Assembly (NCBI GenBank): GCA_018268515.1
Contig: JAFDWK010000027.1
Span: 1 to 32,042 of the forward strand
Direction of reading: 5' to 3'
DNA: 32,042 bases
Origin: Actinomycetota bacterium
Lineage (GTDB): Bacteria; Actinomycetota; Actinomycetes; Actinomycetales; Microbacteriaceae
Both the position numbers and the translations under genes were made by a program. Positions within the stretch are counted from its first letter, which is position 1. Every line of letters begins with the position of its first letter. This document shows positions 1-15,777 of the stretch, in pieces. The notes below the pieces were generated by a model. It was not told the DNA's origin and ran no database searches. It worked only from the letters and a program-made list of their open reading frames with translations.

Positions 1-147
1 CGACCGCCATCCGAGGTCACACGCGTCTTGCAGATCGAGGTAAAGCCGGGCATTACCGCGGCAGAAGTCACCGGACAGGGTGCTCACCTGCTCACCAGGA
101 GCGGAGGCGAGCATGACGGTTTCAATGCGCGTGATGTCGGCGGGTGA
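1..147 (+). CDS. Possible C-terminal end of an upstream protein (partial)
   Basis: Frame 1 is open from the left edge to a TGA at 145-147 and would encode the last 48 residues of a protein ending NARDVGG. Most third positions are G or C, as expected for coding DNA here. The frame overlaps the proposed relaxase start at 113 by 35 bases, so translation of the two could be coupled. No family is recognised. It may equally be a chance open frame, because only 147 bases are visible. Confidence 0.3.
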   Translation, partial: RPPSEVTRVLQIEVKPGITAAEVTGQGAHLLTRSGGEHDGFNARDVGG

Positions 148-3100
148 TGGCTACAAGTACCTGCTCAAGACGGTCGCGGCAGCCGACGGCGACAGGCCAC
201 TCTCCACGCCGCTCACTCGCTACTACATGGAAGAAGGCACACCGCCCGGCCGCTGGCTCGGCGCAGGCGTAGCGGCCCTCGGCAAGGGCGAGATTCAGGT
301 CGGCGACCGAGTATCGGAACACCAACTCCAGCTCCTGATGGGGACTGGCCACGATCCGATCACCGACCAACCACTCGGTCGTGCCTTCCCGACCTACAAG
401 AGCCAGGAAGCGCGGATCGAAGCGCGGATCGCAGACCTCGAGCCGACGATGACGCCTGGCGCCAAGGGCGAGGCCGTCGCGCAGATCGTTGCCGAGGAGA
501 CGGTCCGGAGCACACGCCGTGCGGTGGCCGGCTTCGACTTCACCTTCTCGATCCCGAAGTCCGCGTCGGTGCTGTGGGCGGTAGCCGATGCGGGGGTCCA
601 GGCACTGATCGCGGAGGTGCATCATCGTGCGGTTGCGGAGGTGGTTGCGTTCATGGAGCGCGAGGTTGCAGCCACGCGGACGGGTGCAACCGCCGGGGAC
701 GGCGCGGTTGCGCAGGTCGATGTCACCGGACTCATCGCGACCGCATTCGATCACTTCGACTCCCGAGCCGGCGACCCCCACCTCCACACGCACGTGGTCA
801 TCAGCAACAAAGCCAAGACCGTCCTCGACAGCAAGTGGCGCTCGCTCGACGGCAGACCCATGCACGCCGCCGTCGTCGCGCTCTCCGAACTACACGAAGC
901 CGTGTTCGCCGACCACATGACCCGCACCTTCGGCGTCTCCTGGGAAGCGCGCGAGATGGGTCGGGACCGGAATCCGGCGTGGGTGATTACGGGGGTTCCG
1001 GAAGAGCTGGTCTCGGAGTTCTCGACCCGTGCCCGTCACATCGACGTCGAGAAGAACCGGCTCATTGCCGAGTACGTCGCTCAGCACGGACGCCAACCTT
1101 CGAACGCGACGATCCTCAAGCTCCGGGCCCAAGCCACGCTGGCCACGCGGCCTGAGAAGCAGGTCCGGTCCTTGGCGGACCTCACCACGGAGTGGCGAGC
1201 CCGCGCAACGAAGACGCTGGGGCGGGACGCGACGACGTGGGCGCGCCAGGTCACCGACAACGACAAGCCGCTGCTCCTGCGCGCGGACGATGTGCCGCTC
1301 GACGTGATTGGCGAGTTGGGACGCTCGGTCGTCGAGGTGGTCGGTGAGAAGCGCTCGACCTGGCGACGATGGAATCTCATGGCCGAGGCATCCCGGCAGA
1401 CGATGGGCTGGCGGTTCGCCGCCATGCAGGACCGGGAAGCCATCGTCGCGATGGTCGCCGACGCCGCCGAGCTCGTCTCGCTCCGCCTGACACCACCTGA
1501 ACTCGCCGCGTCGCCAGTTGTGTTCCGTCGGTCAGACGGCAGTTCGGTGTTCCGTCCGAAGGGTTCGACCGTGTTCACCTCCGAGTCCCAGCTCGCTGCG
1601 GAGGACAGACTCCTCGAACGAGCCGCCAACCTCGACGGGCCGATGGTGCAGCTCGCAACGGTCGAGAGGATCACGCGCAGCCCCGACGCGGACGGCCGGA
1701 TGCTCGGGGACGACCAAGCCGACGCCTTGACCCGCATCGCAGTGTCAGGACGGATGCTCGACGTGCTGGTCGGCCCCGCCGGGGCGGGCAAGACAACCGC
1801 CATGAGCGCGCTCCGCCGCGCCTGGGAAGCCGAGCACGGCCCCGGTTCCGTCGTCGGTCTCGCACCGTCAGCGGTCGCCGCACAGGTTCTCGCCGACGAC
1901 CTCGGAATCGCAACCGAGAACACCACGAAGTGGTGGCAGAACCACCTCATCCACGGCACCACCTTCGAGGCGGGACAACTCGTCATCATCGACGAAGCCT
2001 CCCTCGCCGGCACCCTGTCACTGGACCGCATCACCCACCTCGCCCAGGACGCCGGAGCGAAGGTGCTGCTGGTCGGCGACTACGCCCAACTGCAATCCGT
2101 GGACGCCGGCGGCGCGTTCGCGATGATCGCCAGAGACCGAGCCGACACCCCCGAACTGGTCGACGTCCACCGCTTCACCCACCCCTGGGAGAAGACCGCC
2201 TCACTCGAGCTACGCCACGGACGCACCCCGGCCATCGACACCTACCTCGCCCACGAGCGCATCAAAGACGGCGACGCCGAGGCCATGACCGAAGCCGCCT
2301 ACAACGCATGGCGCGCCGACCGCGACGCCGGGCTCGTCTCGGTGCTGATCGCCGAAACCCACGAAGACGTGACCGCTCTGAACGGTCGCGCCCGCGCCGA
2401 CCTGATCCTCAACAAGACGCTGAACCCCGACCGTGAAGTCGAGCTGCGCGACGGCACCGCCGCAGGCGTCGGCGACACCATCATCACGCGACAGAACAGC
2501 AGGAACCTCCGCACCCTGGCCGGGCGGGACTGGCTGCGCAACGGCGACATCTGGACCATCACCGCCGTCGGCGACGACGGAACCATCACCATCGCACGCG
2601 ACTACGGAACCGGCGCCACCGTCCGCGACGACGGAACCATCAAGGCCCGCAAGCATGGACGCAGGTTCGGCGGCAGCATCCTCCTCCCAGCCTCGTACGT
2701 AGCCGAACATGTCGATCTCGGCTACGCAGTCACCGCCTACCGTGCCCAAGGCGTCACGACCGACACTGCGCACGTACTGGTCGAACCGACCTCGACCAGA
2801 GAGACCTTCTACGTCGCGATGACCCGAGGACGGCACTCGAACCACGCCTACGTGGCTCTCGACCGCGCAGACGACCATGCGCAGCCGCACCCCGGCGACG
2901 ATCCGCATGCTACGGCGCGAAGCGTGTTGTACGGCGTTCTGCAGCACAGCGGGGCCGAACTCTCGGCGCACGAGACCATCGTGGCCGAACAGGAACAGTG
3001 GGGCTCCATCGCTCAACTCGCCGCCGAGTACGAGACCATCGCCGCCGCAGCTCAACACGACCGCTGGGCCACCCTCGTCCGGGGCTCCGGGCTCACCGAG

Positions 3101-3724
3101 GACCAGGCCGAGAGCGCCATCGAGTCCGAGGCGTTTGGCCCGCTTACGGCCGAACTGCGCCGCGCCGAAGCCAACCACCACAACGTCGATACGCTCCTGC
3201 CCCGCCTCGTCGCCGCGCGCGGGTTCAGCGACGCCGACGACATCGCCGCCGTCCTTCATTACCGGGTGGAGCGTGCGACAGCGCGTCCCGCAGGCTCCGG
3301 CAGGACTCGCAAGCCACCGCGACTCATCGCCGGCCTCCTTGCACAGGCGCATGGAGTCATCGACGTCGAGATGCGAGCAGCGCTCGACGAGCGAGAGGAG
3401 CTGATCGAGGCACGCGCCGACGCCGTACTCGACGGCGCGCTGACCGAGAGCGTGCCGTGGACGAAGGCCCTTGGAGCGCAGCCGAACGACCGACGACGAG
3501 CGGCGACCTGGCGCAAGGCCGCCCGCGTAGTCGCCGCCTACCGAGACCGCTACCGCATCACCGACGACGCACCGCTCGGAGCCCCGCCCGAGTCGGCCGT
3601 ACAGAAGATCGACGCCGCAAGGGCGCGCGCCGCGCTCGACCAAGCGCGAGTGGCCGCTGAAGCCCTGGATGATGCTCATGTGGTTCGGGGCCCGTCAAGA
3701 GGCGGTCCGTCGCGGGCGCTGTAG
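113..3724 (+). CDS. MobF-family conjugative relaxase-helicase (TrwC/TraI-like)
   Basis: This protein would nick the transferred strand at oriT, stay covalently attached to it, and unwind it as a 5'-3' helicase during conjugation. The N-terminal TrwC relaxase domain spans about residues 1-400. Y37-Y38 are candidate nucleophilic tyrosines, and the metal-binding histidines are H214 and H223/H225/H227 in DPHLHTHVV. The RecD-like helicase follows, with Walker A GPAGAGKTT at 554-562, Walker B IIDE with D627-E628, and a late motif YRAQGVTTDTAH followed by FYVAMTRGRHS near 870-900. The last 300 residues look helical and charged. I chose the ATG at 113 because GGAGG lies 5 bases upstream and MTVSMRVMSAGDGY is a usual start for the family. 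A GTG at 80 would add 11 residues. At 1,203 residues the length is normal and no frameshift is visible. No oriT was identified. Confidence 0.93.
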   Translation: MTVSMRVMSAGDGYKYLLKTVAAADGDRPLSTPLTRYYMEEGTPPGRWLGAGVAALGKGEIQVGDRVSEHQLQLLMGTGHDPITDQPLGRAFPTYKSQEARIEARIADLEPTMTPGAKGEAVAQIVAEETVRSTRRAVAGFDFTFSIPKSASVLWAVADAGVQALIAEVHHRAVAEVVAFMEREVAATRTGATAGDGAVAQVDVTGLIATAFDHFDSRAGDPHLHTHVVISNKAKTVLDSKWRSLDGRPMHAAVVALSELHEAVFADHMTRTFGVSWEAREMGRDRNPAWVITGVPEELVSEFSTRARHIDVEKNRLIAEYVAQHGRQPSNATILKLRAQATLATRPEKQVRSLADLTTEWRARATKTLGRDATTWARQVTDNDKPLLLRADDVPLDVIGELGRSVVEVVGEKRSTWRRWNLMAEASRQTMGWRFAAMQDREAIVAMVADAAELVSLRLTPPELAASPVVFRRSDGSSVFRPKGSTVFTSESQLAAEDRLLERAANLDGPMVQLATVERITRSPDADGRMLGDDQADALTRIAVSGRMLDVLVGPAGAGKTTAMSALRRAWEAEHGPGSVVGLAPSAVAAQVLADDLGIATENTTKWWQNHLIHGTTFEAGQLVIIDEASLAGTLSLDRITHLAQDAGAKVLLVGDYAQLQSVDAGGAFAMIARDRADTPELVDVHRFTHPWEKTASLELRHGRTPAIDTYLAHERIKDGDAEAMTEAAYNAWRADRDAGLVSVLIAETHEDVTALNGRARADLILNKTLNPDREVELRDGTAAGVGDTIITRQNSRNLRTLAGRDWLRNGDIWTITAVGDDGTITIARDYGTGATVRDDGTIKARKHGRRFGGSILLPASYVAEHVDLGYAVTAYRAQGVTTDTAHVLVEPTSTRETFYVAMTRGRHSNHAYVALDRADDHAQPHPGDDPHATARSVLYGVLQHSGAELSAHETIVAEQEQWGSIAQLAAEYETIAAAAQHDRWATLVRGSGLTEDQAESAIESEAFGPLTAELRRAEANHHNVDTLLPRLVAARGFSDADDIAAVLHYRVERATARPAGSGRTRKPPRLIAGLLAQAHGVIDVEMRAALDEREELIEARADAVLDGALTESVPWTKALGAQPNDRRRAATWRKAARVVAAYRDRYRITDDAPLGAPPESAVQKIDAARARAALDQARVAAEALDDAHVVRGPSRGGPSRAL

Positions 3725-3840
3725 GGCCAGTGGCGGCTCCAGGGTGCGGACGGTCGAATGTCGGCGCGGCCAAGTAGCCTCGGAGCCACACGCCAGTAGA
3801 CTTGAACCCACATGACGACACGGCTGAAGGAGGCGGGACG

Positions 3841-4797
3841 ATGGCGCGCGCTGATCTACTCCTAGACCTCGTCGAGGCCGAACGCCGCGGTGATCGGGAA
3901 CGCTTCAAGGTGCTGGTTGAGTCGGTCATCGCCGAAGAGCGCGCCAACCAGCATCATCTTCTCGCTGATCGGCTCTCGCAACTCATCACGACGACGGGGC
4001 AGGGACCCGTCCGTGACGACCGAGCAGCGGCGATCCGCGATCTCGTGCATGAGGTCGTACCGAACCGTCGGCTACATGAACTCGAACTTGCACCGGTCCC
4101 GCAGCGAGTCGTTACCGAACTGATCGAGGAGCAGAAGCGCGCGGAACTTCTGCGTAGTTACGGTATTGAGCCGCGCAACCGCCTTCTGCTGTCCGGCCCG
4201 CCTGGAAACGGGAAGACGAGTGTGGCCGAAGCGATCGCGGCAGAACTGATGCTTCCCTTCTACGTGATCCGCTACGAAGGTGTGATGTCGAGCTTCCTCG
4301 GCGAAACGGCCGCACGGCTTGACAACGCCTTTGAGTTCGCGCGGACTCGCCGTTGCGTGCTGTTCTTCGACGAACTGGACACCATCGCCAAAGAGCGAGC
4401 GGACGAGCATGAGACCGGCGAGATCAAGCGAGTGGTGTCGACGCTGCTGCTCCAAATCGACAGACTGCCACCCCACGTGATCCTCGTTGGCGCAACGAAC
4501 CACGGCGAGCTGCTGGATCGGGCGGCATGGAGACGGTTCCAGATTCGGACGGAGTTGGGAGCGCCTAGCCGCGCACAGGCGACGAGATTCCTCGAACGTC
4601 TCGCTGAGCGCCTCGGAGGCGACCTCGGTTTCGCTCCTCGGACCCTCGCTGACAAGTTGGCCGGCGCGAGCTTCGCCGAGTTGGAAGAGTTCGCACTTGA
4701 TGTGCGCCGCCGTGCGGTACTGGAACTTCCGGATGACAACATCCGCCGGATCGTGCAAGAACGGCTTGAACACCGCCGAGGTCAGGCGGCAGGGTGA
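3841..4797 (+). CDS. ietA: AAA+ ATPase, IetA-like partner of subtilisin-like protease
   Basis: A 318-residue single-domain AAA+ ATPase. A helical N-terminal region (about 1-85) precedes Walker A GPPGNGKT (119-126), Walker B LFFDELD (D177-E178), a sensor-1 segment VGATN and arginines in RAAWRRF. The ATG at 3841 follows a strong ribosome site (AAGGAGG, 3828-3834). The stop overlaps the start of the protease gene (GTGA), so the two are translationally coupled. This order and size match ietA/ietS, described as a plasmid stability and incompatibility pair on Ti plasmids, where the ATPase neutralises the protease, and later counted among antiphage systems. The gene sits 116 bases behind the relaxase gene. 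That gap has a possible -10 element (TAGACT, 3797-3802) but no clear -35. The IetA assignment is by architecture and neighbourhood, not alignment. Confidence 0.9.
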   Translation: MARADLLLDLVEAERRGDRERFKVLVESVIAEERANQHHLLADRLSQLITTTGQGPVRDDRAAAIRDLVHEVVPNRRLHELELAPVPQRVVTELIEEQKRAELLRSYGIEPRNRLLLSGPPGNGKTSVAEAIAAELMLPFYVIRYEGVMSSFLGETAARLDNAFEFARTRRCVLFFDELDTIAKERADEHETGEIKRVVSTLLLQIDRLPPHVILVGATNHGELLDRAAWRRFQIRTELGAPSRAQATRFLERLAERLGGDLGFAPRTLADKLAGASFAELEEFALDVRRRAVLELPDDNIRRIVQERLEHRRGQAAG

Positions 4798-7406
4798 CAG
4801 TTGAGCGTAGACCGCTCCTTGCGTTCGGGCCGGCGGAGGTTGTAGCGCGGCCAACTCAGACCCCGCGTGATCTTCCACGTCTGTCAAGGCCGGGCGCTGG
4901 GCGACAAGGTGAACGCCTGACTCCTCAGTTCAAGGACTTGGCCGCGGCTTTCGAAGCCGAACGTGCCCGTCTGAGCGCAGACACCCCAGAGGAGATCGAC
5001 CCCGCACTCGTGGTCGTGTTTGATCTGGCGGGAAGCGTCAAGGACTTCCGCAACGCGATCAACCGGATCGATGGCCTGGAGTTTCTGTCTGAGCTTCTCG
5101 GGGATCAATCTGACCCCGACGACGATTTCCACATGAGGGAGCGTGAAGCTGGACGGACCGACAAGCGCGTCACGCACTCGCTGTACCTGGTCATGTCCAA
5201 CACCAAAGCGATCGACGAACTACTCCGGCTCTTCGCTCAATGGCAGGCCGACCCGTCCGCGTCGTTCGAGCACGGGCTCGGCAAGTTCAAGACGGCCTTC
5301 CAGCAACTGACAGCGATACGTCGGTGGGGCGCTGAGGACCGCATCCGTGAGACTGGTCTACGAGAGCGCTGGGAAGAGACTCTCAGCATGGTCGGTCAGT
5401 CAGTAAGCACCGTCCTCGTCGAAGTCGAGCTCTGGCATAGGCGTGATGCCGCCCAGCGTGCGGCTGCCGAGGCGCACGTCGAGGAAGTCATCACTTCCAG
5501 CGCCGGGCGAGTCTTGGATCGCTCGCAGATCGGAGAGATCGAGTACCACGCGCTCCTGGCTGAACTCCCGATCCAGCAGGTCCAGTCCGTGTTGACCAAC
5601 GGAGCTTCGGCCATTCGGCTCCTCACGACTGATGATGTCATGTTCGTCAGCCCCTTCACCCCGATGAGCGTTGCGCCAGGGACTCTTGAGCCAGTTGCTC
5701 AAACCCAACTTGCTCGCAGCGACAGAATCGAAGGCAAGCCTCGGATCGCGCTGCTCGACGGGCTGCCGTTCACCAACCACGACGCGCTCCAAGGTCGGCT
5801 CTCGATCGATGACCCTGATGAGATCGGTGAGAACTACCCCGTCGCGGCTCGCCACCACGGAACCGCCATGGCGTCACTCATCATTCACGGCGACCTCACT
5901 GATGGCGGTCCACCGCTTGATCGTCCGCTCTACGTACGACCGATCCTGCAGCCCCACGAGTTCATGCCTGGACACGAGCAGGTAGTCCCAAATCGTCTGC
6001 TCACCGACGTCCTTCACCGCGCAATCAGACGGATTGTGAAAGGCGAGGGGAACCAACCTGCCGCAGCGCCGAGCGTCCGGGTTGTGAACCTGTCCATTGG
6101 CGCGCAGACGCGAGCACTCACGCGCCGAATGAGCCCCGTCGGGCGCCTGCTGGACTGGCTCGCCCACTCGTACAATCTGCTGTTCGTCGTCAGCGCGGGC
6201 AACCACACCGACGAGTTCACGATCCCCGCCGATGCCGCGCACGACACCGAGGCCGCTCGCCTGGCTGCAATGCGGGACGGCTTCGAGACGGCGCTGCTGC
6301 GCGGCATCCTTCCGCCTGGCGACGCCCTGAACGCCCTCACCGTCGGCGCCACGCACTCAGACGGCCTCGGTGAGATCGAGGTTCCGGACACGGTATGGGA
6401 CATCACCCACCCGGACGCTCCCGCACACTATGGGTCTGTTGGGCCCGGCGTCGATCGGTCGGTCAAGCCGGACCTTCATCACTCCGGAGGTCGCGCCCTC
6501 TACACGCGCCCCATCGTCCTGCCCGGTCAGACTGACGTTGCCGTCGGCCTGGCTCATACCGCCGCGACGGGACCCGGCTTGCAGGTGGCCGCTCCGGGAC
6601 GAGGCGGTGCTACCAACAGCACGGTGTTCACGAACGGCACCAGTAACGCGACCGCGCTCGTCACCCGTGAAGCCAGCAGGCTGTTTGACCTCCTTGAGTC
6701 CGACAACCGCGACCCCGAAGACGCACCCCTTCCTGATCCGCAGTACCACCCGCTGCTCGTGCGTGCCCTCCTTGCCCATGCAAGCAGCTGGGGCGCCTGG
6801 GAGAACAGCCTGCGCAACGGTCTTGGTCTCAATGGCCAGGACGCTCGGCGGCAGCTGACGGCTCTGCTCGGCTACGGTCGCCTCGACCTCAGCAGACTCG
6901 GCGAAGCCGCATCCAACCGAGCGGTCCTCGTTGCCGGCGGTCAAATCGCACGGAACGAGCGCCATACTTACGGCTTCCCACTGCCTCCCTCACTCCGAGC
7001 GAAAGCGGAATGGCACCGCTTCACCATCACGCTGGCATTCATGGCTCCAACGGTCGGCCAGCTCACTCGGTACCGCAGCGCCAAGGTCTACTTCAGCACG
7101 CCGGACACGACCCTGGCGGGTGGAGACCGAACCGATGCAGAGCACAACGCCGTGCGGCGAGGCAGCCTTCAACACGAGATCGTGCAGGGCACCCGCTCGA
7201 TGTCTTTCGTAGATGGCGATGCCTTCCCGATCCACGTCGAGTGCATGGACGATGCCCAACGACTCCGTGCCGGTAACACCATCCGATATGCGCTGGTCGT
7301 GTCAGCAGAGACTGCCGAACAGACATCAAACACGATCCACGATGAAGTTCGCGACAGACTGCGACTCCGCGCGCGCGAGCGTGCCCGTGATCGCATCCGC
7401 TCGTAG
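4794..7406 (+). CDS. ietS: Subtilisin-like (S8) serine protease, IetS-like
   Basis: An 870-residue protein with a long N-terminal region (about 1-315) of unknown fold followed by an S8 peptidase domain. The catalytic triad is complete: D322 in ALLDG, H355 in HHGTAMAS and S617 in NGTSNAT, with the oxyanion asparagine N470 in SAGNH. About 220 residues follow the serine, likely a beta-rich C-terminal domain. There is no signal peptide, so the protease should act in the cytosol, as expected for the IetS toxin/effector and not for secreted subtilisins. Translation begins at GTG 4794, overlapping the stop of the ATPase gene. Known IetAS pairs work as a toxin-antitoxin-like plasmid maintenance system and are listed as a defence system. 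The substrate is unknown. The intact triad argues for a functional enzyme. Confidence 0.9.
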   Translation: MTVERRPLLAFGPAEVVARPTQTPRDLPRLSRPGAGRQGERLTPQFKDLAAAFEAERARLSADTPEEIDPALVVVFDLAGSVKDFRNAINRIDGLEFLSELLGDQSDPDDDFHMREREAGRTDKRVTHSLYLVMSNTKAIDELLRLFAQWQADPSASFEHGLGKFKTAFQQLTAIRRWGAEDRIRETGLRERWEETLSMVGQSVSTVLVEVELWHRRDAAQRAAAEAHVEEVITSSAGRVLDRSQIGEIEYHALLAELPIQQVQSVLTNGASAIRLLTTDDVMFVSPFTPMSVAPGTLEPVAQTQLARSDRIEGKPRIALLDGLPFTNHDALQGRLSIDDPDEIGENYPVAARHHGTAMASLIIHGDLTDGGPPLDRPLYVRPILQPHEFMPGHEQVVPNRLLTDVLHRAIRRIVKGEGNQPAAAPSVRVVNLSIGAQTRALTRRMSPVGRLLDWLAHSYNLLFVVSAGNHTDEFTIPADAAHDTEAARLAAMRDGFETALLRGILPPGDALNALTVGATHSDGLGEIEVPDTVWDITHPDAPAHYGSVGPGVDRSVKPDLHHSGGRALYTRPIVLPGQTDVAVGLAHTAATGPGLQVAAPGRGGATNSTVFTNGTSNATALVTREASRLFDLLESDNRDPEDAPLPDPQYHPLLVRALLAHASSWGAWENSLRNGLGLNGQDARRQLTALLGYGRLDLSRLGEAASNRAVLVAGGQIARNERHTYGFPLPPSLRAKAEWHRFTITLAFMAPTVGQLTRYRSAKVYFSTPDTTLAGGDRTDAEHNAVRRGSLQHEIVQGTRSMSFVDGDAFPIHVECMDDAQRLRAGNTIRYALVVSAETAEQTSNTIHDEVRDRLRLRARERARDRIRS

Positions 7407-7425
7407 CGCGATCTGAGACAGCGGC

Positions 7426-8418
7426 CTACAGCTGCCGCACTTCCCGAGCGCTGCTGACTGTGCGTTCAGGCATCAACAGAGATGCAGAACTCCCGCGCTC
7501 GACGTCGCGGGTCTCCAACGCGCGGTAGAGGTCAGCAGCATCGGTGATGACGGCGCAGTCCTTGTCGCGCAGCAGGCGGTGCGGCCCTGCGCTTGTTGCG
7601 CTGGTCACCGGACCGGGTACCGCGCCAACAATCCGCCCCAACTCTTGGGCGCGCTCTGCCACCTTCATTGATCCTGAGCGAGCTCCGGCCTCGACAACGA
7701 CAGTCGCTGTGGAGAGCGCGGCCATCAACCGCGCCCGTGCAATGAAGCGGTGGCGCGTCGGAACCGCGCCTGGTGGAACCTCGCTGACCAGGAGGCCGAG
7801 GTCAGCCACCCGCTCAAGAAGTTCACGGTGACCGATTGGGTAGGGGCGATCAACGCCGTTCGCCACGACTGCAATCGTGTCGCCGTCGGATGCCAGCGCC
7901 GCTCGATGGGCAGCCCCTTCGATGCCGTACGCGCCGCCGGCCACGACTATCCGCTCCGCGTTGGCGAGATCGGAGGCCAGTTCCGCGGCGACATGCTCGC
8001 CGTATGAAGTCGCGGCCCTCGCCCCGGTGATCGTGACGAGATCATCGAGTGGTCGCGCGAGGAAAGATGTCGTGCCACGAGTCCACAGGACGTATGGCCG
8101 CCGGTCGCCAAGATCGTCGAGTGCGGATGGCCACTCCCCGTCGCCGGGGATCAGGGTGCCGATGCCAGCGCGCTCGGCGTCGACGATGCGCTGCCCAAGT
8201 GTCCGAGCGTCTGAGCGCTCGAACTGGGCGCGCCACACCTGAGCGTCAACAGCACTGAGGCCCGGCACCGCGTCATCACGCTCAGCAAGCCGAAGCAGCT
8301 CAAACGCCCCCAGCTCGCCCAGGAGACGGCCTGTCACGGCGTCGTCTGGTTCGACGGTCATCGACAGCAGCATCCGTGCTGTGCGCTCCTCCTGGACTAC
8401 GTGGCTCAGGTTCGTCAT
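7426..8418 (-). CDS. DprA/Smf-like DNA-processing protein on the mobile element
   Basis: A 330-residue DprA-family protein. The N-terminal ~95 residues are helical, and the extended Rossmann fold occupies about 115-290. Family signatures are visible: ITGARAATSYGEH, VVAGGAYGIEGAAHRAAL (usually SGLARGID), ARARLMAALSTATVVVEAG followed by ARSGSMKVAERA, and VPGPVT. DprA proteins bind single-stranded DNA and load RecA; carried on an element, the protein may handle incoming transfer strands. The ATG at 8418 is preceded on the minus strand by AGGAGTGAGAGGAC, a good ribosome site. It converges on ietS with only 19 bases between the stops. The final ~35 residues show no winged-helix DML1 domain. Family membership is clear, but the role in this setting is inferred. 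Confidence 0.9.
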   Translation of the reverse strand: MTNLSHVVQEERTARMLLSMTVEPDDAVTGRLLGELGAFELLRLAERDDAVPGLSAVDAQVWRAQFERSDARTLGQRIVDAERAGIGTLIPGDGEWPSALDDLGDRRPYVLWTRGTTSFLARPLDDLVTITGARAATSYGEHVAAELASDLANAERIVVAGGAYGIEGAAHRAALASDGDTIAVVANGVDRPYPIGHRELLERVADLGLLVSEVPPGAVPTRHRFIARARLMAALSTATVVVEAGARSGSMKVAERAQELGRIVGAVPGPVTSATSAGPHRLLRDKDCAVITDAADLYRALETRDVERGSSASLLMPERTVSSAREVRQL

Positions 8419-9424: not shown

Positions 9425-9482
9425 AAGACAGGGTTTTCAGGTGTGGGCAGGGGTTCTCAAACTCTCTACGGAGGTCCACCAA
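9425..9482 (+). other. Possible attachment-site remnant: RNA-gene-like 3' end finishing in CCACCA
   Basis: The segment ends ACGGAGGTCCACCA and runs two bases later into a strong hairpin, the layout normally seen behind tRNA or tmRNA genes. No gene points into this hairpin from the left in the window. Elements that integrate into the 3' end of an RNA gene leave such a fragment plus the native terminator at the distal end, and this is exactly where gene style changes. However, a standard T-arm (GTTCRANYC) cannot be folded here; GGGGTTCTCAAACTC is only loosely similar. The call is inference from position and layout. Confidence 0.25.
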
Positions 9483-9613: not shown

Positions 9614-11080
9614 GTGACCGGAAGCAGGGCAGAGGGCGCCTACCTGCGCGCGCTCGCGGCGTTCAAGACGCCGACGCTCGATCTGCTGCACGGCCGGTAC
9701 GCCCCCTTCGTCGTCGCCGCCCTGAGCCAGATGTTCTCCGCCGACCGGCCGACCGTGACCGTCGCCGACGCGCACGTCGAGGTCGGCGAGATGCTCGACC
9801 AGCTCCGCGCGGCGAGCCATCGGGGCGACGACCGACGGCTGCCTGCCACGACCGGCCGCGAGCTGTGCCGATACTGGGTCAGGGTCGGCTGGCTCGGCCA
9901 GCAGATCGACGGCGACAGCGAGGTGTACCGGCTCACCGCGCACGCCGTGCGCGCGCTCGAGATCGCCGACCTCACCGGCGGCGGCGCGCGGGTCTCCAAC
10001 TCCCGGGTGCGCACCCTGCTCGAAGCCGTGGAACGCCTCGCGGGGAACGCGGACGAGGACCCGGCGCGACGCCTGCGGCGGTTGCGTGCCGAGCGGGACG
10101 CGCTGGATGCGCAGATCGCGGCGCTCGAGAGCGGTGCGACCGGACCCGTGCCGGAGGACGAGCTGCTCGAAGAGGCCGAGAACGTGCTGCATCTCTCGCG
10201 CGGGCTGCCGGCGGACTTCACCCGCGTCGCGGAGTCGATCAAGGCCATGCAGCGCGACGTGATCCGCGACCTCCGTCGCGATGAGCGCCCGACCGAGGAG
10301 GTGCTGCGCGAGTACCTCGTGCGCGGCCAGCAGGTCATGCAATCCACGCGCGAGGGGCAGGCGTTCGCCGGGGCGCTCCGGCTGATCGGGGACCCCGAGC
10401 GGATCGACGAGCTCATGGATCAGCTGCACGGCCTGCTCTCGCGCCCCTTCGCACGGCAGCTCGACGCCACCCAGCGCGCCGAGCTCGACATGATCGGGCG
10501 CCGCATGGAACTCGGCGTGCAGGAGGTGCTGACGGCCCAGCGCCGCGCTTCGCACGTCATCGCCGGCCAGGTGCGCACTCACGACCCCGCGCGCGATCGG
10601 CAGGTCGACGAACTGCTACGCGACGTCATCGCCGGAATGCAGGCCTGGACGCAGACGCGGACGCCGGAGACGCCGGTGGATCCGCTGCGCCGCCTGCCGG
10701 TGGCGAGCATCGGCCACCTGCGCCAGACGCTCGGCGACATCCGCCCGCCCGGGGCGCCGGCGGCACTGGCCACACAGGGGCAGGACGCGGAGTTCGTCGA
10801 TGCCGACACCCGTGCCTGGGGCGGTCCGCACTACGCCGAGCTCGAGGCGCACATCGCCGGCCTCGGCGACACCTTCGACCTGGGCGAGGCGTTCCAGGCC
10901 ATCGCGGAGCAGGGTACCCGCCGCCCGGTCGACCTGCTCGGCCTGCTCGAGATCGCCCACCGCAACGGCCTCGCCGAGGGGGAGGGGGTCTCGATCGTCG
11001 AGGCCGTCCGCCCCGACGGCGCCGCGCGCCGGTTCGCGTTCGGATCCGTGACCGCGCATGCCAGGAAGGAAGAGGAATGA
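9614..11080 (+). CDS. jetA: Wadjet JetA (DUF3375), kleisin-like subunit
   Basis: A 488-residue DUF3375-type protein, the MukF/MksF-like kleisin of type I Wadjet. It should bridge the JetC ATPase heads and recruit JetB within the SMC complex that recognises and acts on plasmid-sized circular DNA. The N-terminus has the family-like pattern [20 protein letters not shown] with predicted winged-helix character. A long helical charged centre (about 150-400) and a C-terminal [17 protein letters not shown] region follow. I chose GTG 9614 because GAGGGAG lies just upstream. Earlier in-frame codons (to 9413) run through the hairpin and look non-coding. The stop overlaps jetB (ATGA). It is the first gene of the jetABC operon. 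Confidence 0.88.
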
Positions 11081-11841
11081 CCGCCTCCGATGCCGCAGAG
11101 ACCCCCGATGTCGTCGCCGACACCGCAGAGAGCTCTGATGCCACCGAGACCTCCGGGTTCATCGAGCCCGTCGCGATGGAGGACGACCTCGCGGAGCTCT
11201 TCCCCGGAGACCGCGGGGTGCTCGACCCCGAGGTGCGGCGCACCCTTGCGCTGATCCTGCACCGGCGATTCCTGCTCGCCGACCGCAACCGCACCGAATG
11301 GCGCACCCTGCTCGACAATCAGACCGTGATCGAGTCGCGCCTCAACGACCTCTACATCCGGCTGATCGTCGACCACGAGCACGGCCTCGCATACAAGCAG
11401 CAGATCCGCGTCGACGAGCTCGACATCCCCATCCTCCTGCGCGACACGCCCTACACCCGCTCCGAGACCCTCGTGCTGGTGCACCTGCGCACCGTGTACG
11501 AGCGCGAGAACGTGGCCGGCGAGGCCGCGCCGCGCATCGACGTCGAGGACGTCGAGCAGACCGTGCTCAGCTACTTCACCGACGCCGACGGCGACATCTC
11601 CCGACGGCAGAAGGCCGTGCGCGACGCGATGCGGAAGCTGTCGAACGACGGGATCATCAGCGAGGAGACCACCGGACGCTACCGGATCGGTCCTCTCGTG
11701 GAGGTCGTGCTGAGCGCCCAGAAGCTCACCGAGCTTCGCGACTGGCTGCGCGAGACCGCCGCCGAACGACGTGCCGGTGCGGGCGATCTCGTGCTCGACG
11801 ACGCCGCTGTCGAGGAAGCACTGGAGGACGCCCTGTCATGA
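11077..11841 (+). CDS. jetB: Wadjet JetB (DUF4194), KITE/MukE-like subunit
   Basis: A 254-residue DUF4194-type protein corresponding to MukE/MksE. It would bind the kleisin JetA as a winged-helix KITE dimer. The first ~40 residues are acidic and low-complexity. The folded part starts at about [20 protein letters not shown] and includes [20 protein letters not shown] and a C-terminal winged-helix segment, [20 protein letters not shown]. Both ends overlap neighbours by 4 bases (ATGA with jetA, ATGA with jetC), giving tight translational coupling and presumably fixed stoichiometry. The size is normal and no damage is visible. Confidence 0.88.
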
Positions 11842-14800
11842 CGATGGTCGACACGCTCTTCGGACTCATCCCCGAGGCCTCCCGTGGCCAGCAGTGGATC
11901 GCCGAGGATCTGCAGCTCGTGAACTGGGGCGGCTATGACGGGGGACCGCACCGGGTGCGGTTCTCGCCCGCGGCGACCCTGCTCTGCGGCGGATCCGGAT
12001 CCGGCAAGTCGACCCTCATGGACGCGTACATCGCGCTCATGATGCCGCACACGACGCCGTTCAACGGCGCGTCCAACGGCGGCGTCACCGGACGCCCGCG
12101 CGGCGATGAGCAGCGCAACGTGCTGTCCTACGGCCGCGGCAAGCTCGACGAGACGCGCACCGAGGAGGGCACCAAGGTGCAGGTGCTGCGCGGCGACGGC
12201 GAGGACACCTGGACCGCGATCGCGATGACGTGGCGCGACCACGACGATTCGCGCTTCACCGCCGTGCGCGCCTGGTACATCCCGGCGGGCGCCCGCGTGC
12301 TCGAGGACACCGTGCGCGTGCGTGCCACGGCGAACACCGCGTTCGACCTCGCCGCGCTCGAGCGGGCCGCCGCGCAGCGCCTCACCGACGCCTCGGTGCG
12401 CGCCGCGGGGCTCGAGCCCGTGGGCACGGACCGGGAGTTCTCGGCCCGCCTGCACTCTGTGCTGGGCATCGGCGCCGCGGGATCCGGCGCGAACGCGATG
12501 AGCCTTCTCGCCCGCATCCAGGCCGGACAGCAGATCACGACGGTCGACGACCTGTACAAGCGTCTCGTGCTCGAGGAACCGGAGACGATGCGCACCGCGG
12601 ATGCGGTGGTCGTGCACTTCGACGAGCTCGAGAGCACGAAGCAGCGCATGCTGGTCGCGCGCCAGCAGGTCGCCGCCCTCGAGCCGATCCGCGATCTGCG
12701 TCAGCGGATCGATGCCGCGGCCGGGCGGATGACGCTCATCGATGCGGTCGGCGTGTTCGAGGACCCGGACTCGGTCGCGTCGCTCTGGCGCGCCGCGCGG
12801 CGCATGGATCTGCTGCGCGAGGTCGAGGGCGAGCTCCGCGACCGCACGCGCGTGCTCGACGTCCTCGTGCGGGAGAAGCGCGTGCAGGCCGAAGCCGCGG
12901 AGGTCGAGCACGACGGCCTGCGGGATCTGCTGCGCGAGCGCGGCGGCGACCGGCTGGAGACGGCGCAGCGGGAGCTGCGCGGCATCGAGCGGCGCCTCGA
13001 GGAGGCGCGAGCCCTCCGTGCGCGGTTCGAGGACGACCTGCGCGTGCTCGGTGCCGAGGCGCGCAGCCGGGCCGAGTTCGACAAGCTCGTGGAGCGCGCC
13101 CGCACGGTGCTCGGCGACGCGGACGGCAAGGGCCGCGCGCGTGAGGCCTGGGCCGACGCGCGTCGGGCCAGGGACGGCCTGAAGGCCGAGCTCGCGCAGC
13201 GCGAGCGCGCGGTCGAGGAGGCCGCCGCGTTCGGAGGCAACATCCCGGCCGACCTGTATCGCTCCCGCGAGCTGCTCGCCGAGGCGGCGGGGCTCGAACC
13301 GCACGAGCTGCCCTTCGTGGGTGAGCTCATCGAGATCCGCACGGAGTTCGAGCCGTGGCGGGAGGCGATCGGCCTCGCGCTCGGCGGCTTCGCCACGACC
13401 GTGCTGCTCGATGTCGCCGACCTCGGCCGGTTCCGCACCGCAATCGACGGCGTGCGCACCCCGCGCCGACTCACCTATCAGGGCGTGCACACCGGGCTCC
13501 CCGCGAGCGGCGGGGGAGCGGAGAACCGGCTGCCCGGACGGCTCGAGTATGCCGAGACCCCGTTCACGGGCTGGCTGCAGGTGCGGCTGGCGGAGCGGTT
13601 CGGCTTCGTCTGCGTGAACTCCGCCGCGGAGCTCGCTCAGCACGAGCACGCTCTCACGATCACGGGCCTTCTTTCCCGCGGCGAGCAGGGCGCGCACGGC
13701 GGCCACGGCCGCGGCAACGTGCTCGGGTTCTCGAACCGCGCCCGGTTGCGCGAGCTGGATGCAGCGGTCGAGGAGCTGCGGCCCGCCCTCGAGCGTGCCG
13801 AGAAGGCCGTGACGGCCGCCGAGACCGCGCTGGACCGGTTCGACGCCGAGCGTGCGGTCTTCGCGCGGATCGTGGACGTCGTCTGGGATCAGGTCGACGT
13901 CGACGCCCTTGCCGCCGTCCAGGCGCGCTGGCGCGGCGTCGAGGCGGAGGTCGCGGAGAAGAACCCGGACATCACCGGGATCGTGACACAGATCGAGAAG
14001 GCCAAGGCGCGTGCGGGACGACTCCGCGAAGAGATCGGGGCGGCCGTGGCCGAGCGCGGGCAGGTCGAGCGGCGCTGGGGCGAGATCACCGACGACGTCG
14101 ACGCCGGGCAGGCGCTGATCGACGCGGCCTCCGGATCCGATCGCACCGTGGGGGCCGAGCAGGCGCAGTATCTCGACGACCGCTTCGCCTCGCCAGCCTC
14201 GGCCAAGGCCGCGCCGTCGGTGCTGCTGGAGCGCTTCGACGGCGCACTGCAGAGCGCAGGGAACCGGCTCACGGAGGATCGGGCGACGGCGTTCCAGGCG
14301 CACCATGAGCAGCGCGAGAGCATGCGCCGACTGATGAGCGGCTTCCTGGAGCGCTGGGAGAACCCGAATCTGATGGCGGATCCGGATCTGTACATCGACG
14401 ACTTCGAGAGCATCCTCACCGCCCTCGAGACGAGCGGGCTGCACCGGCTCGAGAGCGAGTGGCGGGACAGCCTCGTCCATCTTTCGGGGAACGACCTCAC
14501 GAACCTCGACTCCACGCTCGGCCGGGCCCTCCGTGACATCCGGGAGCGGATCGAGCCGATCAACCGGATCATGCAGGACCTGCCGTTCTACGACGACGAT
14601 CACCGCCTGCAGATCACGACCCGCGAGAGCCAGTCCGAGGCGCGCAAGCGCTTCCGCCGTGACCTGCGCGAGGTGCGGGGGCTCATCGAGGCGGCTTCCA
14701 GCGACCAGGAGCGCGAGCAGGCCTACCGTCGGATGTCCCGTCTCATCGGGCACCTCCGACGCTCCGCACCCGACTTCGCCGATCTCATCGATGTGCGCAA

Positions 14801-15194
14801 TCACGTGCGGGTGAGCGCCGAGAGGGTCACCGCGGACACCAAGGCGCACGTCGCGCTGTACGACCACATCGGCGAGAAGTCGGGTGGAGAGTCGCAGGAG
14901 CTCATCGCGTTCATCGTGGGGGCGGCGCTGCGCTATCAGCTCGGCGATGCCGGGGCGGAGCGCCCGCGCTATGCGCCGGTGTTCATGGACGAGGCCCTCA
15001 TCAAGGCCGACGCGCACTTCACCAAGCGTGCGATCGGCGCGTGGCGAGGCCTCGGGTTCCAGCTCGTGATCGGCGCGCCCAACGACAAGTACAGTGCGAT
15101 CGAACCGCATGTCGACGTGGAGTACGACATCCTGAAGGACACCCAGGGGCGGTCCTGGGCGAAGCTCAAGGTCGCCCTGCCGGCGTCGGACTGA
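11838..15194 (+). CDS. jetC: Wadjet JetC, SMC/SbcC/MukB-like ATPase
   Basis: An 1,118-residue SMC-like motor that would extrude DNA loops in the Wadjet complex. The N-terminal head has Walker A GSGSGKST (52-59). Two long coiled-coil arms (about 280-460 and 620-930) flank a hinge-like globular region (about 465-600). The C-terminal head has the ABC signature EKSGGESQE (around 1013-1021) and Walker B PVFMDEAL with D1051-E1052. The ATG at 11838 overlaps the jetB stop; the frame stays open further upstream, but only as an alternative reading of jetB. The end (KVALPASD) looks family-typical, so the ATPase seems intact. In standard type I loci jetD (DUF3322/DUF2220, TOPRIM nuclease) follows immediately. 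Here a regulator fragment follows instead. Confidence 0.9.
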
Positions 15195-15340
15195 ACCACG
15201 GCCCGTCTCGCATCGCCTCCTGCGGCTTCGGCAGCGCCGCCCTGTTCCGGCACCATTTCGCGCGTGAGGTGGGCATCGCCCCCACCGCCTTCCGCCGCTC
15301 CTACGCCTCTCAGGACGGGATGGGCGGATCCGCCGTCGCC
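15195..15340 (+). pseudogene. C-terminal fragment of a GlxA/AraC-type regulator at the jetC junction
   Basis: Directly behind the jetC stop, another frame reads RIASCGFGSAALFRHHFARE followed by VGIAPTAFRRSYA. This matches the second helix-turn-helix of GlxA-like AraC-family regulators (pattern CGFGSAA-RHHF-VG-PTAYRR). Nothing of the first ~270 residues of such a protein is present, and no start lies nearby, so it is a relic. Its position at the point where jetD should begin indicates a deletion or recombination joint between jetC and a former araC-type gene. The boundaries are approximate. Confidence 0.6.
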
Positions 15341-15777
15341 GATGATGCCGGCCCCGGCACCCCCTCGGCGTGGGCGAGATCCCGCAGCCGCGGGCACGTC
15401 TTGACTTGAGCCGCGTCACTTCCGGCAGGATCCGGACTCCTTCTCTCTGGGAGCAGTGCCGGACGACCTCCCCCCGATCCGGCGCCCTCCCGGTGGTGCA
15501 GTCCCTCCGGCGTGGGCGTGCGGCGACCTGGGGATCGGCTCGCGCGCCGTCGGGCCGCCGGCAGGGACTGCACCCTTCCACGCTCCGTGGACCTCCGGCA
15601 TCGACTCGGCGGGGCGAGGCCCGGCGACGGGCTCGACGGGACGCAGGGGTATCGTGGAGGAGAGTGCCGCCGGGCCGTCGTGCCGGATCGGCGCGGTCCC
15701 GGTGCTGGCTGCACGTCGTTCATGAGCGTCGTGGCGCCGGGTCCCTCCGAGGAGGGCATCGTTCCTGGGGAGGAAGA
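15341..15777. other. Intergenic stretch without convincing gene
   Basis: The stretch of about 440 bases separates the regulator fragment from the sigma factor gene. An open frame continuous with the sigma gene runs through it (from 15370), but its translation is arginine/glycine/serine-rich and shows no domain, so I treat it as non-coding. The stretch contains the long hairpin at 15495-15574 and must also hold the sigma gene promoter. TATCGT at 15650-15655 is a weak -10 candidate without a clear -35. Confidence 0.6.
15495..15574. repeat. Long imperfect inverted repeat (hairpin) upstream of the sigma gene
   Basis: GGTGCAGTCCCT (15495-15506) and AGGGACTGCACC (15563-15574) are perfect reverse complements. 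Inside them CCGGCG (15507-15512) pairs with CGCCGG (15556-15561) after a single bulged C at 15562. This gives an 18-bp stem with a loop of about 43 bases. No U-run follows. It may be a leader structure, a small RNA, a binding site for a dimeric protein or a transposon-end relic; nothing in the sequence decides between these. Confidence 0.7.

Follow-up and report, generated by a model that had tools for sequence, protein, structure and literature searches.

Introduction

MksBEF and MukBEF have been proposed to descend from Wadjet-like defence systems, and PMC10586767, which discusses this proposal, regards MksBEF of Pseudomonas aeruginosa as a Wadjet descendant that lost its nuclease. Type I Wadjet systems (JetABCD) include MksBEFG of Corynebacterium glutamicum and EptABCD of Mycobacterium smegmatis. 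In C. glutamicum, where the nuclease is kept, the accessible text of PMC7083940 assigns the complex no role in chromosome organisation, and that of PMC10123090 reports that loss of MksG and loss of MksB have the same kind of effect on plasmids. There is thus no sign in that organism of the motor alone folding the chromosome or restricting plasmids. Here we describe a type I jetABC locus without jetD in a relative of Microbacterium, and its distribution, history and constraint in Actinomycetota.

Results

The window carries jetABC without jetD

The window, the whole 32,042-nucleotide stretch of DNA analysed here, lies on contig C35. Its draft genome (3.7 Mb, 115 contigs) has Microbacterium as its nearest named relatives. 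We confirmed the arrangement described by an earlier sequence-only reading, in which jetA, jetB and jetC are intact, overlap by 4 bases at each junction, and are not accompanied by jetD in the window (Table 1). In a Pfam scan of the longest frames (those for jetA and jetC begin ahead of the genes themselves), JetA matched DUF3375 (4.1e-106), JetB matched DUF4194 (1.1e-35), and JetC matched the SbcC Walker B (8e-21) and AAA_29 (2.1e-20) models, while PADLOC assigned JetA1 (7.7e-203), JetB1 (1.5e-107) and JetC1 (0). The nearest solved chains by sequence in the PDB were 8dk1_A for JetA (E 1.6e-14), 8dk1_E for JetB (E 7.7e-05) and the JetC chain 8as8_A (E 2.2e-42). The JetC motifs that had been placed at 52-59 (Walker A), near 1013 (signature) and at D1051-E1052 were all present, with Walker A at 51-59, the signature SGGES from 1015, and a Walker B that includes D1051-E1052.

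Table 1. Features of the jetABC locus and its flanks, in window coordinates
Feature	Position	Strand	Remarks
Ten bases, 3' end of tRNA-Ala(GGC)	9472..9481	+	identical to the 3' end of the tRNA that stands whole before jetA in G110
jetA (kleisin; DUF3375)	9614..11080	+	488 aa, GTG start, stop at 11080
jetB (KITE; DUF4194)	11077..11841	+	254 aa
jetC (SMC-like ATPase)	11838..15194	+	1118 aa, ATPase motifs intact
Place of jetD in jetD-bearing relatives	15195..15777		here without jetD or recognisable remnant
Fragment, C-terminal end of GlxA/AraC-type regulator	15221..15319	+	equated by reading the translation

A six-frame search of contig C35, with stops read through, gave no match to PF09983 (JetD_C) or PF11795 (DUF3322). 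The locus has the JetA, JetB and JetC (with motifs) of a type I Wadjet and lacks JetD in the operon; equally, it has the SMC, kleisin and KITE genes of an MksBEF-type system, without mksG and under selection. Window JetB has a 17-residue N-terminal leader in common with jetD-bearing relatives of the clade, and the JetB IFDR motif named in the available part of PMC10586767 was not seen by eye in this protein.

Downstream of jetC lie 16 kb that include chromosomal genes also present in the related genome G110. A GlxA/AraC-type regulator is intact after jetC in G110 (L040:11024-12046), and what reads as its C-terminal end is left in the window, suggesting a further deletion on this side of jetC. 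To the left of jetA, we observed an apparent integrated conjugative element (80-8418) with a TrwC relaxase, an IetAS defence pair and a DprA/ShosA-like gene. It ends at the tRNA-Ala 3' bases just before jetA, which are probably its attachment site. A whole tRNA-Ala(GGC) is on contig C21 (L249:1502-1576), and in G110 the tRNA stands directly before jetA.

The only JetD of the genome belongs to a second operon

The genome-wide search for JetD domains that the sequence-only reading had proposed was run and returned one full JetD, on contig C60 (PF09983 3.5e-49, PF11795 2.9e-40), inside a different and distant operon, where it directly follows its own jetC and is accompanied by jetA and jetB (L002). 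JetC of C60 and JetC of the window are 27% identical. The C60 JetD clusters with the JetD proteins of G269 and G278, whose JetC proteins are the nearest to C60 JetC on the tree. The C60 locus is thus a separate, complete jetABCD operon and not the displaced jetD of the window.

Absence of jetD is common in the genus and beyond

In a survey of 295 Microbacterium genomes, 131 had a JetC match at E<=1e-3, and 99 carried the clade of the window's JetC (identity 53% or more, fragments included) in a patchy distribution. A full JetD was absent from the entire genome in 87 of these 99 carriers, so what had been taken as an oddity of one genome is a common state. Genus-wide, PF09983 matched in 40 of 295 genomes, 36 of them with a long stretch, and PF11795 matched the same 36. 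Beside a clade jetC, a full JetD was found only in G100 and G042; jetD is broken in two in G198 and reduced to a fragment in G052. JetC spans 1000 residues or more in 91 loci from the window and the genus. Of these, 85 are jetD-less with 1.5 kb or more of sequence beyond jetC, 4 run into contig ends, 1 carries jetD, and in 1 jetD is broken. The jetD-less carriers include single-contig genomes, such as G007.

A second set comprised the best 80 of 120 confirmed loci from other actinobacteria, many of which are from the same genomes as the genus survey; identical JetC sequences were merged in trees (28 rows merged). Among the 79 of these best 80 with a long JetC, jetD follows jetC in 26, is missing in 48, is broken in 1 (M. 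helvum, the G198 locus) and is cut off in 4. The 26 jetD-bearing loci include Actinomadura, Nocardia, Actinoplanes and Microbispora, and the outgroup clade that holds them also has 8 jetD-less loci (L105, L111, L112, L114, L120, L122, L129 and L135). JetC of the window clade is 54-60% identical to JetC of jetD-bearing type I Wadjets. A more distant Microbacterium JetC clade (33-37% identical) contains 8 jetD-less and 2 jetD-bearing loci.

We also drew 396 genomes from the phylum; the draw took in the genome of the window and three or more others from the same genus. In this small sample, 19 JetA loci passed the cut-off, and 10 had no adjacent jetD. Eight of these 10 were inspected, and each had JetA, JetB and JetC in single frames with no JetD; the remaining two are the window and G043 (L175). 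The other 9 of the 19 have a JetD 4-6 kb away by coordinates, and the one inspected (G561) was confirmed. Since 10 of 19 JetA loci are without adjacent jetD, 'Wadjet' calls made from JetA-C alone overstate plasmid defence. Separately, G617 has a partial JetD (profile 236-381 of 385) on contig C11 (L248:5362-5832), not the contig that carries its jetABC.

Relatives of jetC were found in 6 of 72,556 plasmid records (E<=1e-20), all larger than 200 kb, and in 1 of 50,697 phage records (E<=1e-5), and viral contigs gave no clade relative in a search reaching close relatives. All seven plasmid and phage records were less than 60% identical, and we rejected mobile carriage of the clade on this basis.

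jetD appears to have been lost many separate times

JetC trees were built with FastTree from rows with a JetC match of at least 1000 residues in one frame, save three single pieces. The window clade nests among jetABCD-bearing actinobacterial lineages, and the few jetD-bearing Microbacterium loci nest inside the jetD-less clade, in which jetD-less subclades reach 27 and 21 rows. A Dollo count (jetD at the root, loss only, fragments scored as present) gave 27 losses, or 24 with weak branches collapsed. Adding the phylum rows and the distant clades raised this to 30 losses, or 16 changes if gain was allowed, and the count was 11 when the fragment was scored as lost and the partial JetC rows were absent. 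JetD evolves faster than JetC, with identities of 45-48% and 66-71%, respectively, for G100 against G042 and G198. The JetD proteins of G100 and G042 and the fragment from G198 lie apart from the supported outgroup JetD clade, as vertical descent predicts. Their branches are long and partly unsupported, which leaves room for jetD having been regained. Collectively, jetD appears to have been lost many separate times in the genus and its relatives.

Ten locus pairs were compared by DNA, with positions counted from the end of jetC. Three sister pairs have similar DNA on both sides of a 0.8-1.0 kb gap at jetD, with jetC intact: homology extends to +3 and +6 and resumes at 147 and 1181 in A. litoris and A. 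terrae, respectively; it extends to +38 and resumes at 52 and 1052 in G261 and G100; and it extends to +77 and resumes at 74 and 892 in L129 and L121. G028 and G064 lack the broken jetD of G198 and have the genes after it in common. The pairs L120/L113 and L135/L134 have only the start of the jetD region in common and then diverge, and G101 and G198 have only scattered stretches in common after jetC. Neither side of window/G110 or G128/G110 has jetD, and these two pairs inform on later rearrangement only.

Short homologous ends persist in some recent losses. A local JetD profile, built from the domain stretches only, found no remnant at E<0.01 in the 1.5 kb after jetC of 116 jetD-less loci. 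Even recent losses fall below this cut-off, so the remnant search shows only that little is left. The idea that jetD was lost recently holds elsewhere in the clade and not for the window, which has no remnant after jetC and sits in an 11-row subclade of 9 loci without jetD and 2 cut by contig ends.

jetABC is under strong purifying selection

We estimated dN/dS with pairwise codon models for close sister pairs of our own choosing. In 11 pairs without detected jetD (dS 0.34-1.44), values for jetA, jetB and jetC were 0.016-0.077, which bears out the earlier suggestion of continued selection. Two of these 11 pairs include a locus whose contig ends shortly after jetC (G212, G103); neither genome has a JetD match. 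Among the comparison sets, 4 mixed pairs gave 0.026-0.091 and 4 jetD-bearing pairs 0.033-0.171, the top value being that of two jetC genes separated by a dS of just 0.03. Every likelihood ratio against a dN/dS of 1 was 26 or more. Pairs that include the window (against G212, M. azadirachtae and G110) gave 0.029-0.072. These genes are under strong purifying selection.

Gene integrity was also high. The three ATPase motifs are kept in every JetC row scored (116 of 116 jetD-less and 29 of 29 jetD-bearing). For jetD-less clade loci with JetC of at least 1000 residues in one frame and enough upstream sequence, jetA and jetB are unbroken in 106 of 107, the exception being a split jetB in G170; one further locus had too little upstream sequence. 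Loci with shorter JetC frames comprise a split jetC without jetD in G183, a split jetC with jetD in G042, a partial jetC in G052 and several contig-end cuts.

We looked for a change in conserved residues that might betray a lost interface with JetD. Sites conserved in the 26 jetD-bearing outgroup rows were retained in the 99 jetD-less rows at 194 of 312 positions in JetA, 82 of 141 in JetB and 424 of 617 in JetC. The weakest-retained stretch of JetA, 142-174, was picked from many stretches scanned, and we do not take it as evidence of such a change. Loci that lack jetD conserve the JetB N-terminal leader as well as those that have it; should this leader dock JetD, another partner may still use it.

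No common gene takes the place of jetD beside jetABC

Gene-neighbour clustering gave no replacement gene across the clade as a whole. On the same strand, no family was the next gene at more than 4 of 108 loci, in calls by a gene caller that recovers JetD in 28 of 44 jetD-bearing loci and so misses about one third. We therefore rejected a replacement partner gene beside jetABC. Some subclades have chromosomal neighbours of their own, such as pdxS and pdxT (named by search) directly upstream in 8 to 9 loci. Other recurring neighbours are, we presume, transporters, an antiporter and a maltokinase. In L097 (Microbacterium indicum), the gene 17 bases after jetC, which we take to be sbcD, is followed by a 989-aa gene, perhaps forming an SbcCD pair beside a jetD-less jetABC.

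Discussion

In our judgement, the locus probably encodes a functional JetABC complex that arose when a type I Wadjet lost jetD and that selection maintains as a nuclease-free SMC motor similar to MksBEF. The genes and their ATPase motifs are intact and under strong purifying selection, JetD is absent and its gene was lost recurrently on the JetC tree, no common replacement lies next door, and jetC relatives are rare on plasmids and phages; upkeep of the motor after loss of its nuclease suggests a useful job without cutting. By analogy with Wadjet, JetABC would bind DNA, hydrolyse ATP, and translocate or extrude loops. With the final cleavage missing, DNA would be compacted, positioned or hindered instead of cut, and the substrate would most likely be the chromosome or replicating circular DNA in general. 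Counting against this reading, the clade is patchy (99 of 295 genomes), unlike a housekeeping condensin, jetD-less loci with a broken jetB (G170) or jetC (G183) exist, and the JetB leader, if it docks JetD, may still serve another partner where jetD is missing. The C. glutamicum complex, described as having no chromosome-folding role, tells against transferring the condensin reading as it stands.

A narrower form of the same reading, whose probability overlaps with it so that the odds given here do not add to one, is nuclease-free plasmid control, in which JetABC would load on and compact small circular DNA and lower its copy number, expression or inheritance without cutting. We entertain this tentatively. 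The close kinship to jetD-bearing type I Wadjets, the patchy, accessory-like distribution and the conserved JetB leader are in its favour, but all four subunits are needed against plasmids in Bacillus subtilis according to PMC10586767, and in PMC10123090 deletion of mksG acts like deletion of mksB on plasmid copy number in C. glutamicum. Partnership of JetABC with a nuclease encoded elsewhere, either the C60 JetD or another effector, is unlikely. The window's genome does encode the C60 JetD, 11 of 99 carriers have a non-cognate JetD, and the conserved JetB leader would fit a partner; however, a non-cognate JetD is missing from 88 of 99 carriers and is no more frequent in carriers than in non-carriers (24 of 196; Fisher p=0.85), which speaks against borrowing. 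The C60 JetC is also distant from that of the window, the C60 JetD groups with the JetD of its own JetC kin, and no neighbour gene is common to the clade. Borrowing of a JetD, one form of the option put forward by the sequence-only reading, finds no general support, given the 87 carriers without a full JetD and the location of the window genome's only copy in a different, distant operon.

Two further explanations were weighed. Decay, in which jetABC would linger as the remains of a dead system, is consistent with the loss of jetD that leaves short homologous ends in some recent cases, with the two broken jetD-less loci, and with G052, which retains only a partial jetC and a jetD fragment. It is nonetheless very unlikely considering the strong constraint in the 11 pairs without detected jetD at dS 0.34-1.44, the jetD-less subclades of 27 and 21 rows, and unbroken jetA and jetB in all but one of 107 assessable loci. 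The same integrity and the low dN/dS of the window's pairs argue against a dead system here, and where frameshifts in relatives had been named as a sign of simple decay, the broken jetD-less loci number two (G170 and G183). An artefact, with jetD present and missed through assembly gaps or divergence, might be suspected in a draft of 115 contigs and for a protein that evolves faster than JetC, but it is extremely improbable: the window's jetC runs into 16 kb with chromosomal genes common to G110, single-contig genomes are among the jetD-less carriers, two separate JetD domain models agree, and the local JetD model found no remnant after jetC at 116 loci. The evidence weighs against both a dead system and a JetD acting in trans as a general rule, and the cleavage-free, MksBEF-like option raised at the outset is, from gene sequences, the best remaining reading, with jetABC intact, constrained and without jetD.

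A broader proposal strikes us as evenly balanced between right and wrong: that in Actinomycetota selection maintains JetABC as the core of type I Wadjet, to which JetD is an optional addition as effector. Repeated loss of JetD (about 30 times if never regained, or 16 changes with gain, on our tree) would have converted an immune nuclease into a stable SMC motor that does not cut and has a cellular job of its own, making the passage from defence to condensin frequent and ongoing. The proposed first step from Wadjet-like defence to MksBEF/MukBEF, nuclease loss, has seemingly been taken many times. Some losses are recent, so that sister species with and without jetD can be compared at the same chromosomal site, and what an SMC immune motor does once it is unable to cut becomes testable.

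Compared with known systems, the window locus resembles type I Wadjet in its JetA, JetB and JetC families, gene order and ATPase motifs, and differs in having no jetD, with the genome's only JetD match in another operon. As a three-subunit SMC complex it resembles P. aeruginosa MksBEF, which lacks MksG; this likeness rests on the description in the available part of PMC10586767, with no MksBEF sequence on our tree, where the window clade instead nests among jetABCD-bearing actinobacterial lineages. Another published parallel comes from Stenotrophomonas maltophilia, where, in the accessible text of PMC11680222, a Wadjet I in defence island 27 has jetABC more than 95% conserved by the authors' measure, lacks jetD and recurs at one island. 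That system differs in belonging to another phylum and in being judged probably inactive by its authors in the same text, which gives neither a selection test nor a history of losses. A conserved JetD-less Wadjet I and an origin of MksBEF by JetD loss are thus already in print, whereas in the open-access literature searched we did not find the recurrence of the loss and the measured constraint. What our data add is a JetD-less state that appears to have arisen by many separate losses across actinobacteria, with the constraint on jetABC measured.
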